DNA from: Fibrobacter succinogenes
GTDB lineage: Bacteria; Fibrobacterota; Fibrobacteria; Fibrobacterales; Fibrobacteraceae
DNA: 64,000 nt
NCBI GenBank assembly: GCA_902762305.1
Contig: CACWNW010000006.1
Location: 1-64,000, forward strand
Reading direction: 5' to 3'
The notes beneath the pieces are model-generated. The model worked only from the letters and a program-made list of their open reading frames with translations. It did no database searches and was not told the origin of the DNA. Of this stretch, positions 58,011 to 64,000 are shown piece after piece. How positions within the stretch are numbered: position 1 is the first letter of the stretch; the number at the start of each line of letters is the position of its first letter. A program made the translations under genes and the position numbers.

Positions 58011-59234
58011 TTAATTATGCTTAACGTTCGCGCCGTTCGCCTTGAAGTATTGCGGATTCTCGTCCAATACGCGCTTATTTTGTATGTGCCAGTTCAGGAA
58101 CAACTTTCGTTTTTGCGATTTTTCGTTGCGGGCATTGGATGCTCGGCGATTTTCGCGGGTGGGTGCAATTTCGGTTGTCGGCTCTACGCTTGATTCCAGT
58201 TTCCACTTTTCGAGGGAATCGAGGCCCGCGTTCCCGAGGACGGCCAAATCGTAGCCGATGACTTTTATGGCGCCTGCGGCGTATGCGGTATCGAGCTGTG
58301 CTGAGATTCTTGCGCTGTCTGCGAGCGCATGCGAATCGTCGGTGCGGAACAGTTCCATGTCCACCCAGAATTCTATCCCGTATTGCTTGCAGGCCTCAGC
58401 CACCGCGCGTTCGTAGCTGCCCACAGTCGCGGTTTCGGCATGCGGCTTGCCTGCATCGCTTGCACCCACGCCGTCCTGCACGGCGATAATGTCGGGCTTG
58501 AATCCCGCGGCAAAGAGTTTCTCGAAAAACGACTGCAACTTCTCGGGCGTTTCCAGATTCTGGTTGTAGAACGGGGCCGCCATCACCTTCCAGCCCTTTG
58601 CCTGAGTGGCTTCGGTGACCGGCTTCAGAAAATGTTCCGTGAGCATTTCCGGAGTTGCGTCATCGCGCAGGTCGTTCCAGTAGTAGCGCGCAATCTCCTG
58701 CGGGATGTACACGCCCTCGACAACGGCCTCGCTCCCGTATAGCGAATGGATTTCTTCGAGTACCTTCAGGTTCCTTGATGCGAGCGTGTCGAGCTGCTCG
58801 GCAGTCGGCGGGGTGTACCAGTTCTCGCCATTGTAGTAGAGCCCGAGCCAGATTCTGGTGCCTGCGGTTTTTGCCGCCTCGATGCTCTTTGGGAAAAGCT
58901 CGTTGTTCTTGTATTGCGTGTTTTGCAGAAAATCTAGTTGCGAAGGGTAATACAGGTGGGTCGCCTCGACGGCGGCATACTGCAATACGACTTCGTCCAT
59001 CCCGAGCGCGTGAAGCCTCTGGTGCATGTGCGTGATGGAATCCTGCGGGTAGTAGGCGGTCGACCATCCGGCATCGAATACGCCCGCGATTCCTGCGACA
59101 CTTGTTCCCGCGACACCAGCGACGTTTGATCCTGTGGCATGAACTGCGCTAGCGAGTGGCCCGGCGGCAAGCGAAAACGCCCCGCACAGGAGCGCGGGGA
59201 GTGCATGTCGGAATGTGTGCCGCGAGATTGCCAT
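58011..59234 (-). CDS. Secreted DUF4434-family protein (glycosidase-like TIM barrel)
   Basis: A 407-residue protein with a signal peptide (about 1-34). The barrel has D-A-G-W-S-T-A-Y-Y-P near 53, M-D-E-V-V-L-Q-Y near 78, W-L-G-L-Y-Y-N-G-E-N-W-Y near 128 and F-W-V-D-M-E-L-F near 298, which match DUF4434 proteins thought to act on polysaccharides. Activity is not proven. The end is basic (S-Q-K-R-K-L-F-L-N-W). ATG 59234 has TATATT six bases upstream. Confidence 0.72.
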   Translation of the reverse strand: MAISRHTFRHALPALLCGAFSLAAGPLASAVHATGSNVAGVAGTSVAGIAGVFDAGWSTAYYPQDSITHMHQRLHALGMDEVVLQYAAVEATHLYYPSQLDFLQNTQYKNNELFPKSIEAAKTAGTRIWLGLYYNGENWYTPPTAEQLDTLASRNLKVLEEIHSLYGSEAVVEGVYIPQEIARYYWNDLRDDATPEMLTEHFLKPVTEATQAKGWKVMAAPFYNQNLETPEKLQSFFEKLFAAGFKPDIIAVQDGVGASDAGKPHAETATVGSYERAVAEACKQYGIEFWVDMELFRTDDSHALADSARISAQLDTAYAAGAIKVIGYDLAVLGNAGLDSLEKWKLESSVEPTTEIAPTRENRRASNARNEKSQKRKLFLNWHIQNKRVLDENPQYFKANGANVKHN

Positions 59235-59240
59235 ACCTGA

Positions 59241-59246
59241 AATATA
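59241..59246 (-). promoter_or_regulatory. -10 box six bases before ATG 59234
   Basis: TATATT, then TCAGGT, then ATG, on the minus strand. The AGG in TCAGGT could act as a very short ribosome site. Confidence 0.4.
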
Positions 59247-59290
59247 CTTGTTTTCGGGCAATGGCTTGACGCGGTGAAGAATCTTATTTC

Positions 59291-62068
59291 CTATTTGGTG
59301 TCGGAGGAAATCTTGGACAGGAACTTGTCGAGCCGCTCGGTGAGTTTCTTTGCGCCTTCGATGTTCAGGTGGTCCGCATTCGCAAATTCTTCAAATTGAT
59401 AATCGTTGTCACCGTTGTTGTATTCATCTAGGACGAAGAAGTTCGGGTATTTTTTTGTCAGCGCAGTGATGTCTTTCTGAATGACTTTCGCATCGTCCAG
59501 GCTCAAACCGTACCTGCCGTAGACGCCCATATTTTTGATGTAGTTCGGCGATTGCGGGAAAACGACTCCAACGACTGTGATTTCATATTCCTGCGCGAGC
59601 CTGATGATATTTTCCAAAATATCATAGTTGAAGAAGTACGGCGCACGGTCATTCTTGAACCAATTCGGGAGGTAGTCCACGCTGGGATAATCGGCTCCCC
59701 ATCCGGCGGTTTTGTCGTAAACCAATCCGCGATGGTACGAGTATCTGTCATATGTATCCCCGTCGGGCGGCATGGCGCTCTTGGAGAGTTCGAGCATGTT
59801 CTTTGGAGCGCCATCATGCCAGAAATTGTGGTGCTCGTCGTAGATATAACCCGGGATTCCGTCGAAAATATCGTGGAAGTTTTCGTCTCTGACATAGAGC
59901 CTGTCGTAATCGAGCGTCAGGATGATTTGCTTGAGATTCTTCGACATCGGTATGATGTAGTTTTCCAGGAAATAGCGTGTGCCGACCAGGCATTGGCGCG
60001 AATACGCCAGGTTGACCGCAAGAGGAGTCAAGAGCCACGGGTCAATTCCGGCAAACGACCTGGAGGAACCTATGATGACGATTTCCATGCTGTCGCGGTA
60101 TTCCCAGAACAGGTCCATTTTCACCTGCATGATTTCCGCTTCGGGGGGCGTGTTCGGGGTGTTGTAGAGTCCTATGCTGTCGAGATCCACTTGGAATGAT
60201 TCGTCCATGTGCTTGACCCAGAGGCAGGGGTGCCATAGTTCTTCGCCCTCGACGAGTTCGACAATCCCTTTTTCCTCGTTCATCGTGACGAGGACGATTT
60301 TTTCGTGGAAGCTGTTCGCCGTGGCGAGCGTGGCGACAATCTGGTTGCTGTTCGTCCATTCGGCATGGTCGAACGTGTAGCCTTTGGGCGCGCTTATGCT
60401 TTTTTGGAACTTTCCATTCTTGTCAACAATGATGATTCGTTCGTGGGTGAGCGTAACCTGCTTGTCTTCGGGAGTGTAGCCGGTAGTCCCGCCAAAGTCG
60501 AGGAACGATATATTCTGGTTGTCGTCCTTGGAAAGGCTCACGTTGCAAATCTGCCTGTCGTTGAACCAGATGGTGTCTACGGATTTGCTGTCACGAACAG
60601 TCGATGATTTTGGAGCGGTTCGGATGCGGAACTTTTGAGAGCCCGAAATGGCGAAAGAGAGGTCGTTGGCGACGCCATCGTGGTATGCGCCGTCAAAAAG
60701 TTTCTTGGGGGTCCCGAATTTCCCGTTCTCGAATTTCACCATCCAGGTGGAACCGCTCTTAAAATCGGCTTCTTCCGTGTTGTTGCCGGCGTCCGTCACG
60801 TAAACAATGACGGTGTCGTTGTCAATCACGTTCCAACGGGGGATCGCGGCGCTTTCCACATCCAGCTTCGTCAATCCGGATCCGGTCTTGTCGAGTTTCC
60901 GCACATAGAGCGAGGATTGTCCTTTGAAGCCTTCGAACTTGGTGCAGAAGGCGACATACTCGCCGTCGGGAGAAATGTCGGGATGGTACGAATCGATTGT
61001 ATCCACAATTTCGGTCAAGCCTTCCGTCTCTCCTGTATAGTCGATAAAGGCGAGATTGCCGGTGATGTCGTTGCGGAAAACGAGCTTGGAACTGTAGCTG
61101 TTGGTGGCGGAGCGGAGTTTTATGGGGCTGATGTAAGAAGAGATGCCTTTTGCCGTGTTGGACGATTCATCCATCGATTCGGCGTCGGGGATTTCTCCGT
61201 ACGCAAGTCGGAAGCCCACGTAATTCGCCCTGGTGTTGGACGAAATCGTATAGACGTCGCCGCGGGAGAAAAGATTGATGTTGTCGGCGTTCGTCCGGAA
61301 ACTCCCGCCTTTTACGATGCGTTCGTCTCTTCTTCCGCTGTTGGCGGGCCCGATAAAGTTCGTGAGCGTGGTGTCCTTGAATTCGCCGAGCCAGTCGTTC
61401 ACCCATTCCATCGCGTTGCCCAGAATATCGCAGACGGTCGATTTTCCCTGGCCCTTGCTGCATACCTCGTGCAGCGTGTAGCCGGAATTTTCGGCACTCC
61501 ACGTCTGCTTCAGGTTCCAGGAAGACTTTGCGACGAACGTCCATTCCGCTTCGGTGGGGAGCCTGAATCCGTTGGACTCGGGGTGGAACGCGAAACCTTC
61601 CAGCCCGTTGCAGTGGCCCGTGTTGTTGCGCGAAATGCTGGTATAGGTATAGACCGTGTCGCGGTTGTGGCTCTTGCTCAGGGCGTTTGCATACAGGGCT
61701 GCATCGTAGAACGTCACGTTGGTCGCAGGGATATCGCCCGTGCAGTCAAGTTTTGGGGACGAGAGCAGCTTGTTGAATTCTGCGCATGTGACTTCGTTTC
61801 TTTGGATGTAGAAGTTGTAGGTGAACTTGACCGTCATTTCGGGCCGTTCATTCGCTTTTGCGCTACTGAGATCCGTGCCCAATACCGCGGTTTTTCCGGA
61901 CGACTTCATGAACAGGAAGTTTTTGACCGCATTCTCCGCATTTTCGTAATCTTCGTATGGCTGGGAGTTCGAACATGCGTCAAGCGCGAAAAGGAACGCC
62001 GGCAGGCACGCGAGAGTCCCGAGCTTGAACAACTTAGGCAAAGATGCGGTTGAATTCGGAGAGAGCAT
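59291..62068 (-). CDS. TIGR02171-like lipoprotein: FGE-like, beta-propeller and SGNH-like parts
   Basis: A 925-residue lipoprotein (signal ending A-L-D-A-C). Residues about 70-290 resemble formylglycine-generating enzyme/SUMF: R-N-E-V-T-C-A-E-F, A-T-N-V-T-F-Y-D-A, F-R-L-P-T-E-A-E-W, D-I-L-G-N-A-M-E-W-V-N-D-W, V-K-G-G-S-F-R and V-G-F-R-L-A. About 320-630 looks like a TolB-type propeller (H-P-D-I-S-P-D-G-E-Y-V-A-F). The last 270 residues have G-S-S-R-S-F-A-G and a closing N-A-D-H-L-N, the order of an SGNH hydrolase. Length and mixture match the Fibrobacter paralogous family TIGR02171, whose function is unknown. AAGGG precedes the ATG. Confidence 0.82.
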   Translation of the reverse strand: MLSPNSTASLPKLFKLGTLACLPAFLFALDACSNSQPYEDYENAENAVKNFLFMKSSGKTAVLGTDLSSAKANERPEMTVKFTYNFYIQRNEVTCAEFNKLLSSPKLDCTGDIPATNVTFYDAALYANALSKSHNRDTVYTYTSISRNNTGHCNGLEGFAFHPESNGFRLPTEAEWTFVAKSSWNLKQTWSAENSGYTLHEVCSKGQGKSTVCDILGNAMEWVNDWLGEFKDTTLTNFIGPANSGRRDERIVKGGSFRTNADNINLFSRGDVYTISSNTRANYVGFRLAYGEIPDAESMDESSNTAKGISSYISPIKLRSATNSYSSKLVFRNDITGNLAFIDYTGETEGLTEIVDTIDSYHPDISPDGEYVAFCTKFEGFKGQSSLYVRKLDKTGSGLTKLDVESAAIPRWNVIDNDTVIVYVTDAGNNTEEADFKSGSTWMVKFENGKFGTPKKLFDGAYHDGVANDLSFAISGSQKFRIRTAPKSSTVRDSKSVDTIWFNDRQICNVSLSKDDNQNISFLDFGGTTGYTPEDKQVTLTHERIIIVDKNGKFQKSISAPKGYTFDHAEWTNSNQIVATLATANSFHEKIVLVTMNEEKGIVELVEGEELWHPCLWVKHMDESFQVDLDSIGLYNTPNTPPEAEIMQVKMDLFWEYRDSMEIVIIGSSRSFAGIDPWLLTPLAVNLAYSRQCLVGTRYFLENYIIPMSKNLKQIILTLDYDRLYVRDENFHDIFDGIPGYIYDEHHNFWHDGAPKNMLELSKSAMPPDGDTYDRYSYHRGLVYDKTAGWGADYPSVDYLPNWFKNDRAPYFFNYDILENIIRLAQEYEITVVGVVFPQSPNYIKNMGVYGRYGLSLDDAKVIQKDITALTKKYPNFFVLDEYNNGDNDYQFEEFANADHLNIEGAKKLTERLDKFLSKISSDTK

Positions 62069-63490: not shown

Positions 63491-64000
63491 TTATTTCTTC
63501 TTAATGCGGAAAACCTGTTGCCCCTTGGAATTCTTTCCTTCTTCGAAGTACTCCGTGGCACGGATAAGGGCAGGCCACTTGGCATAGCCGAAGTTCTTGG
63601 GGCTCAGCGAAATCTGACGGTTGATCTGCTGTGAAATCTTGGATGCGATTGCCCAGCCCGCTTCGTCGGCTTCCTCGCTGATTGCCTTGCGGATGGCGTT
63701 CATGATTTTTGCGTTGCCGCGCAGTTTGTTGCGGTCGAGCGGTTCGATGTTGTTCGTTGCCTCGTCCGATTCGGTCGGCTTCTTGAACTTGTCGATGTAT
63801 ATGAAGGAATTGCACGAATCAATGAACGGCTGCGGCGTCTTTTCTTCACCGAACCCGATTACCTGTTTTGACTTGGCCCTGAGCTTCATGGCGAGCGGCG
63901 TGAAATCTGAATCACTGCTCACGATAGCGAAAATGTCGATGCTCTCCGTGAACAGGAGTTCCATCACGTCGATAGTCATCGCGAGATCGGTCGCGTTCTT
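63491..64000 (-). CDS. NYN-domain (LabA/DUF88) protein with C-terminal LOTUS-like domain, partial
   Basis: The 5' end lies beyond base 64000; 169 residues are visible. The NYN nuclease-like part has K-N-A-T-D-L-A-M-T-I-D-V near the edge and A-I-V-S-S-D-S-D-F-T-P-L near 25, which carry the acidic residues of PIN-like nucleases. The C-terminal part (about 90-160) has L-S-P-K-N-F-G-Y-A-K-W-P-A-L, as in OST-HTH/LOTUS domains that bind RNA. Likely an RNA-processing enzyme; the combination is widespread. The M at 63979 is internal. Confidence 0.85.
   Translation of the reverse strand, partial: KNATDLAMTIDVMELLFTESIDIFAIVSSDSDFTPLAMKLRAKSKQVIGFGEEKTPQPFIDSCNSFIYIDKFKKPTESDEATNNIEPLDRNKLRGNAKIMNAIRKAISEEADEAGWAIASKISQQINRQISLSPKNFGYAKWPALIRATEYFEEGKNSKGQQVFRIKKK

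Follow-up and report, generated by a model that had tools for sequence, protein, structure and literature searches.

The window gene encodes a three-part TIGR02171 lipoprotein

The window, a stretch of 64,000 nucleotides of Fibrobacter succinogenes DNA, carries near its end a gene on the (-) strand whose product scored 1050.5 bits against the NCBIfam model TIGR02171 (cut-off 544.35), residues 28-920 being aligned with positions 13-911 of the 912 in the model. The protein, called TIGR02171-like in a preliminary description of the sequence, is a full-length member of this family, and its features are as follows.

59291..62068, (-) strand: TIGR02171 family lipoprotein gene, 925 aa, ATG start (ORF and NCBIfam)
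61973..62068, (-) strand: putative signal peptide and lipobox with lipid-anchor Cys32, residues 1-32 (Cys32 conservation in the alignment)
61193..61930, (-) strand: FGE-like domain lacking the FGE Cys pair, residues ~47-292 (Pfam, PDB profile, VIA)
60209..61144, (-) strand: TolB-like beta-propeller, residues ~309-620 (PDB profile and VIA)
59294..60205, (-) strand: SGNH-type alpha/beta domain, residues 622-925 (domain model and fold searches)
60062..60064, (-) strand: Ser669, putative nucleophile (GSSR, Block I; 86/86 rows)
59405..59407, (-) strand: Asn888 of the window copy (alignment)
59369..59380, (-) strand: Asn897-Ala-Asp899-His900, Block V, with His900 as putative base (alignment)

TIGR02171 (NCBIfam 'TIGR02171 family lipoprotein', Fb_sc_TIGR02171) is a known, large, multi-copy family of Fibrobacter envelope proteins without assigned function; the name of the model gives none, and in the genomes searched here the family reached into several families of the phylum Fibrobacterota. 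Literature searches found no paper naming TIGR02171 and nothing on paralogous families of F. succinogenes, and the passages seen on the S85 envelope proteome do not mention the family; the papers listed for Fibrobacter and MBOAT did not appear to concern it, and those listed for Fibrobacter polysaccharide or aminoethylphosphonate gave nothing usable.

The source genome contains 10 copies above the family cut-off, one of them cut at a contig end, plus several partial matches. A propeller remnant resembling TIGR02171 and interrupted by two TAA stops was observed on its contig C1 (88790-89848), and further partial copies on contigs C2 and C42. Open frames of 1843-1844 aa occur in two other genomes (G050:C2:110042-115534 and G036:C14:6929-9616), the first of which spans two tandem TIGR02171 units and suggests a fused double protein. 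A plasmid origin of the gene was rejected, as none of the 13 plasmid records matched spanned 80% of the query, and the five listed covered at most 30% of it, namely the FGE part.

The proposed three-part architecture, with an FGE (sulfatase-modifying) fold followed by a propeller like that of TolB and then by a domain of SGNH type, was borne out by the AlphaFold2 model of the full-length protein (mean pLDDT 89.9, pTM 0.84), VIA and Foldseek. Cys32, the lipid-anchor residue, recurs in 85/86 rows of the alignment. Residues 63-289 matched Pfam FGE-sulfatase (PF03781) with 80.4 bits (cut-off 23.3), and the best VIA match of this part was TvpA (2y3c; Z 27.3, 231 residues aligned, rmsd 2.6), with FGE structures at Z ~21 and PorK also among the structural matches; the propeller aligned with TolB over 260 residues (Z 22.3, rmsd 3.4). 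PDB profile searches gave the same relatives, with E-values of 9.2e-39 for TvpA, 1.9e-22 for human FGE, 2.3e-22 for PorK and 4.7e-6 for TolB. The first part shares its fold with TvpA, FGE/PvdO and PorK and the second with TolB; the window protein has no FGE cysteines and gives no indication of a secretion or Tol role. When the FGE Cys positions were taken from an alignment with human FGE, none of the 86 rows had Cys at both catalytic positions, only nine had any Cys within residues 252-272, and the window copy had none in that interval, in agreement with the earlier remark that a paired-Cys active site is missing. Because these catalytic cysteines are absent, an identity as FGE enzyme was ruled out.

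The C-terminal domain has an SGNH fold with invariant Ser and His

Modelled alone, the C-terminal domain gave a three-layer alpha/beta fold with a pLDDT of 95.8 and a pTM of 0.93, and its fold matches in Foldseek and VIA were mostly SGNH/GDSL enzymes, including a putative acylhydrolase in Foldseek (E 3.3e-5) and, in VIA, PAF-AH (Z ~14) and PatB (Z ~12). First among the VIA matches was 9hi5 (Z 14.5), which is a designed scaffold, and further designs related to it appeared among the matches listed. Four DltD entries were found at Z 12.7-13.4, with 246-250 residues aligned in three and 226 in the fourth, and these were the longest alignments among the 50 matches listed, non-DltD rows not exceeding 198 residues. 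Profile searches of the domain against Pfam and PDB yielded weak matches only, those to 6vjp (0.32) and PAF-AH being below significance. Neither Pfam DltD (PF04914) nor Pfam ALGX matched the window copy; among 85 family members, DltD was matched by two (best E 0.092, gathering score not reached) and ALGX by one (0.032). Pfam DUF1574 (PF07611), a member of the SGNH clan of unknown function, gave a weak match in two of the 85 members (best 0.0037).

The preliminary description had placed the motif GSSRSF near residue 690 and NADHLN near residue 900. The first is indeed present, with Gly667 and Ser669 in 86/86 rows of the family alignment, but it lies at residues 667-672, so that the candidate nucleophile is Ser669 and not residue ~692. 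The second occupies residues 897-902 and its His900 is kept in 85/86 rows, the remaining row having a gap; the Asp of the presumed Asp-His pair is Asp899, whereas the canonical DxxH site, residue 897, is Asn in this copy. Judged from the alignment, the conservation of the two motifs is far beyond chance. Asp744 and Pro838 are likewise present in all 86 rows, Asn686 in 83 and His888 in 84. At residue 897 the family is divided between Asp (40/86) and Asn (42/86), and Asp899 accompanies Asn897 in 40 of 42 rows and Asp897 in 23 of 40. The window copy shows the combination Asn897/Asp899, in which Asp899 adjoins His900, and it alone among the 86 rows has Asn at position 888, one other row being a gap. 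The checks proposed earlier, structure prediction and residue conservation, thus returned an SGNH fold in the C-terminal third and a Ser and His invariant in the family; as both are supported, neither a missing fold nor unconserved residues, the two outcomes named as contrary to the assignment, was encountered.

At sites assigned from their place behind strands 2 and 3, the canonical SGNH oxyanion residues, the Gly of Block II and the Asn of Block III, appear not to be conserved, a Gly being found within residues 687-693 in 42/86 rows and an Asn within residues 716-724 in 5/86; catalysis could therefore be absent. At Block II, PatB deviates as well, a feature tied by the authors of PMC12148441 to transfer rather than hydrolysis; PatB, however, keeps the Block III Asn, and the TIGR02171 family appears not to.

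TIGR02171 genes lie in an operon with an AlgX-like gene

In order to describe the gene neighbourhood, 59 named Fibrobacterota loci (L038-L096) were surveyed. At least two TIGR02171 genes were present per locus in 33 of these, mostly separated by a few bases or overlapping by four. The direct neighbour of a TIGR02171 gene was a gene for a polytopic protein in 21 cases and a transglutaminase-like gene in 16, always on the same strand as the TIGR02171 gene, and an AlgX-like lipoprotein gene was reached in 11 loci. The usual order was AlgX-like, transglutaminase-like, TIGR02171 (one to four copies) and polytopic gene, often followed by genes for GH8 and a PD40 propeller protein. One operonic AlgX-like protein matched Pfam ALGX at 2.8e-19, and the polytopic protein, ~470-590 aa long, had no Pfam match in the two examples scanned. 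One polytopic protein (L059:11412-12818) contains the motif DTDIWWHLA, has no Pfam or NCBIfam match and presumably resembles a GT-C-type glycosyltransferase. None of the three partners was seen in 34 of the 59 loci, which held solitary copies, or arrays with flanks too short to reach partners.

In the source genome, AlgX-like, transglutaminase-like, TIGR02171 and polytopic genes form one run on contig C1, and the window copy is solitary, outside the operon. In a tree of 138 sequences the latter was nearest to the copy of locus L043 and then to six operonic copies (support 1.0); being nested among these, it appears, on sequence grounds, to descend from an operonic TIGR02171 gene. A gene for a DUF4434 protein (115 bits; 58011-59261, (-) strand) lies on the same strand 29 bases downstream of the window copy, and no such gene was seen next to the L043 relative. 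The end of the window (63491-64000, (-) strand) encodes a protein with NYN plus OST-HTH/LOTUS.

TIGR02171 co-occurs with an MBOAT of the shuttle-motif type

The nine MBOAT C-termini examined all ended in FLYFQF or FIYFQF, which fits the MBOAT-SGNH shuttle motif given as FXYXXF in the passages seen of PMC12148441. On one contig of genome G093 (L149), genes for this MBOAT, two AlgX-like proteins, the transglutaminase-like, the polytopic and the PD40 protein occur together, with TIGR02171 1.8 kb further on, and a contiguous MBOAT-AlgX-AlgX run was found in 14 of the 31 genomes outside the genus Fibrobacter that carry the AlgX-like gene. Within Fibrobacter the MBOAT gene is outside the TIGR02171 operon; in L131 a distance of ~7 kb separates it from the AlgX-like gene, and in the source genome it is on another contig than the operon.

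Among 120 genomes, TIGR02171 was counted in 74 (73 at E <= 1e-80 plus a fragment in G065). The AlgX-like gene (E <= 1e-40) was present in 72 of these 74 and in three of the 46 others, and the MBOAT orthologue (E <= 1e-100) in 72/74 and 6/46, counts which are not independent because the genomes are related. The exceptions among the carriers were G115, which has neither partner and whose TIGR02171 is a 487-aa piece, G077 with a fragmented AlgX-like gene and G025 with a weak MBOAT; among the non-carriers, G078, G047 and G049 have both partners and G055, G033 and G071 the MBOAT. The MBOAT/AlgX core thus occurs in some genomes that lack TIGR02171, but hardly any genome has TIGR02171 and lacks the core. 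The clearest within-genus contrast was offered by genus g1 (44 genomes with TIGR02171, five without), where both partner genes follow TIGR02171. Full-length TIGR02171 was missing from five Fibrobacter genomes (G016, G064, G104, G112 and G119) along with the AlgX-like, polytopic and MBOAT genes.

In a set of 29 genomes, 20 had full-length TIGR02171, and each of these also had the AlgX-like gene (E at most 3e-52), the polytopic gene and the MBOAT orthologue (at least 366 bits), with the transglutaminase-like gene in 19. No partner gene was found at those levels in the other nine, whose best MBOAT reached 257 bits; G104 showed one weak AlgX match (6.8e-8). The MBOAT-SGNH-type link is phyletic for the FXYXXF-type MBOAT, and it is seen in gene order via the AlgX-like gene. 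The type IX secretion system (T9SS) translocon component SprA was above its cut-off in all 29 genomes, including the nine without full-length TIGR02171.

Searching 26 genomes with the domain alignment, and setting partial TIGR02171 copies aside, we found four SGNH genes without the other two domains (G033, G047, G092 and G011). Two of them, in G047 and G092, directly adjoin MBOAT genes; that of G011 adjoins the gene of an amino-acid-adenylating enzyme similar to DltA but below the DltA cut-off, and for that of G033 no MBOAT was present in the neighbouring stretches examined. Weak matches to DUF1574 were obtained for three of these stand-alone relatives (best 2.5e-6, under the gathering score where shown). 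At L196:784-3961, a protein that combines a SEC-C motif with SGNH lies beside a DltA-like amino-acid-adenylating enzyme.

Proposed function in acylation of an envelope glycan

Operon structure and phyletic distribution both tie TIGR02171 to acylation genes of the MBOAT/AlgX type, which points to acylation of the cell's own envelope glycan, and the genomic context suggests that acyl groups are added to that glycan and not that plant material is broken down. On balance we favour, somewhat above even chances, the view that the protein is an envelope lipoprotein and that its SGNH domain at the C-terminus serves as an acyltransferase, working with the MBOAT on a cell-envelope glycan. In this scheme an acyl group from a donor in the cytoplasm would first be attached by the MBOAT to the Tyr of the FLYFQF motif at its own C-terminus. 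It would next move to a Ser of the AlgX/AlgJ-like SGNH protein and of the TIGR02171 proteins (Ser669 here), and from there to a hydroxyl of the glycan. The role of the FGE-like and propeller parts would be to hold the acceptor or partner proteins, not to catalyse, and a single MBOAT would serve the many paralogues. Enzymatic activity, its direction (transfer versus hydrolysis), the acyl relay, the acceptor and the location are what we infer here. The TIGR02171 lipoproteins may in this way act as acyl-transferring partners or terminal transferases, like DltD or PatB but outside those families.

DltD, the partner of the MBOAT DltB and a D-alanyl transferase, has the closest topology by aligned length among the matches listed, and in both proteins Ser precedes His and there is an association with an MBOAT; unlike DltD, however, the window protein has no Pfam DltD match and is fused to FGE-like and propeller parts, and in the present system the shuttle motif is part of the MBOAT itself. 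The mechanism proposed is that of the MBOAT-SGNH acetyltransferases PatB and AlgX/AlgJ, an AlgX-like gene being part of the same operon, but TIGR02171 has a different domain set and many paralogues per MBOAT. According to the passages seen of PMC9487903, the SGNH domains of AlgX/AlgJ are circularly permuted, whereas in the window protein Ser669 precedes His900.

Several observations speak against this acyltransferase proposal, namely the apparent lack of conservation of the oxyanion residues, the position of the MBOAT outside the operon in Fibrobacter, the loci without partners, the Asn888 and Asn897 of the window copy together with its place outside the operon, and the exceptions G115, G078, G047 and G049. 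The preliminary description had envisaged that the protein binds and deacetylates cell-surface or plant glycans, and a cell-bound carbohydrate esterase, in which the SGNH domain deacetylates plant or other glycans bound by the FGE-like and propeller parts, would accord with the dominance of SGNH hydrolases among the fold matches, sialate O-acetylesterase and acetylxylan esterases included, and with the GH8 gene that often follows the operon. We consider it unlikely, since the linkage is to MBOAT/AlgX-type genes, the canonical oxyanion residues appear not to be kept and the operon is also present in the MAG CG2_30_45_31 (L069), which we take to be of groundwater origin; moreover, according to the passages seen of PMC9487903, F. 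succinogenes has other acetylxylan esterases, Axe6A and Axe6B. The context thus favours MBOAT/AlgX-type acylation instead.

The apparent lack of the oxyanion residues, and in the window copy Asn888 and Asn897, would suit a non-enzymatic binding or scaffold lipoprotein in which the SGNH fold was repurposed like the FGE fold, itself without cysteines here as in PorK (passages seen of PMC12421860). This is quite unlikely for the family, as Ser669 and His900 are unsubstituted over 86 diverse rows, which is unexpected of a family-wide dead site, although some paralogues may be inactive and the reading may apply especially to the window copy. A part in T9SS or gliding, like that of the FGE-fold lipoproteins PorK, GldK and GldJ, was rejected as highly improbable: the TIGR02171 proteins are FGE-fold lipoproteins in a phylum with T9SS and PorK is among the structural matches, but the similarity to the PorK/GldK model TIGR03525 amounts to 20.7 bits against a cut-off of 350, and SprA occurs regardless of TIGR02171, in contrast to the MBOAT orthologue and the AlgX-like gene, whose distribution tracks that of the family.

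An extension of the acyltransferase proposal, which we offer tentatively and hold to be rather doubtful, is one-to-many acylation: one FLYFQF MBOAT and AlgX-like relays would feed the multi-copy lipoproteins, whose FGE fold and propeller would choose the acceptor, giving a surface with differently placed acyl groups. We know of no other system in which one MBOAT supplies about ten SGNH lipoproteins. The link to an MBOAT/AlgX-type module makes the function of TIGR02171 testable, the question being whether Fibrobacter acylates its own surface glycans, and genomes without the whole module provide a natural comparison. Acylation of surface glycans may be relevant to adhesion to plant fibre or to protection.
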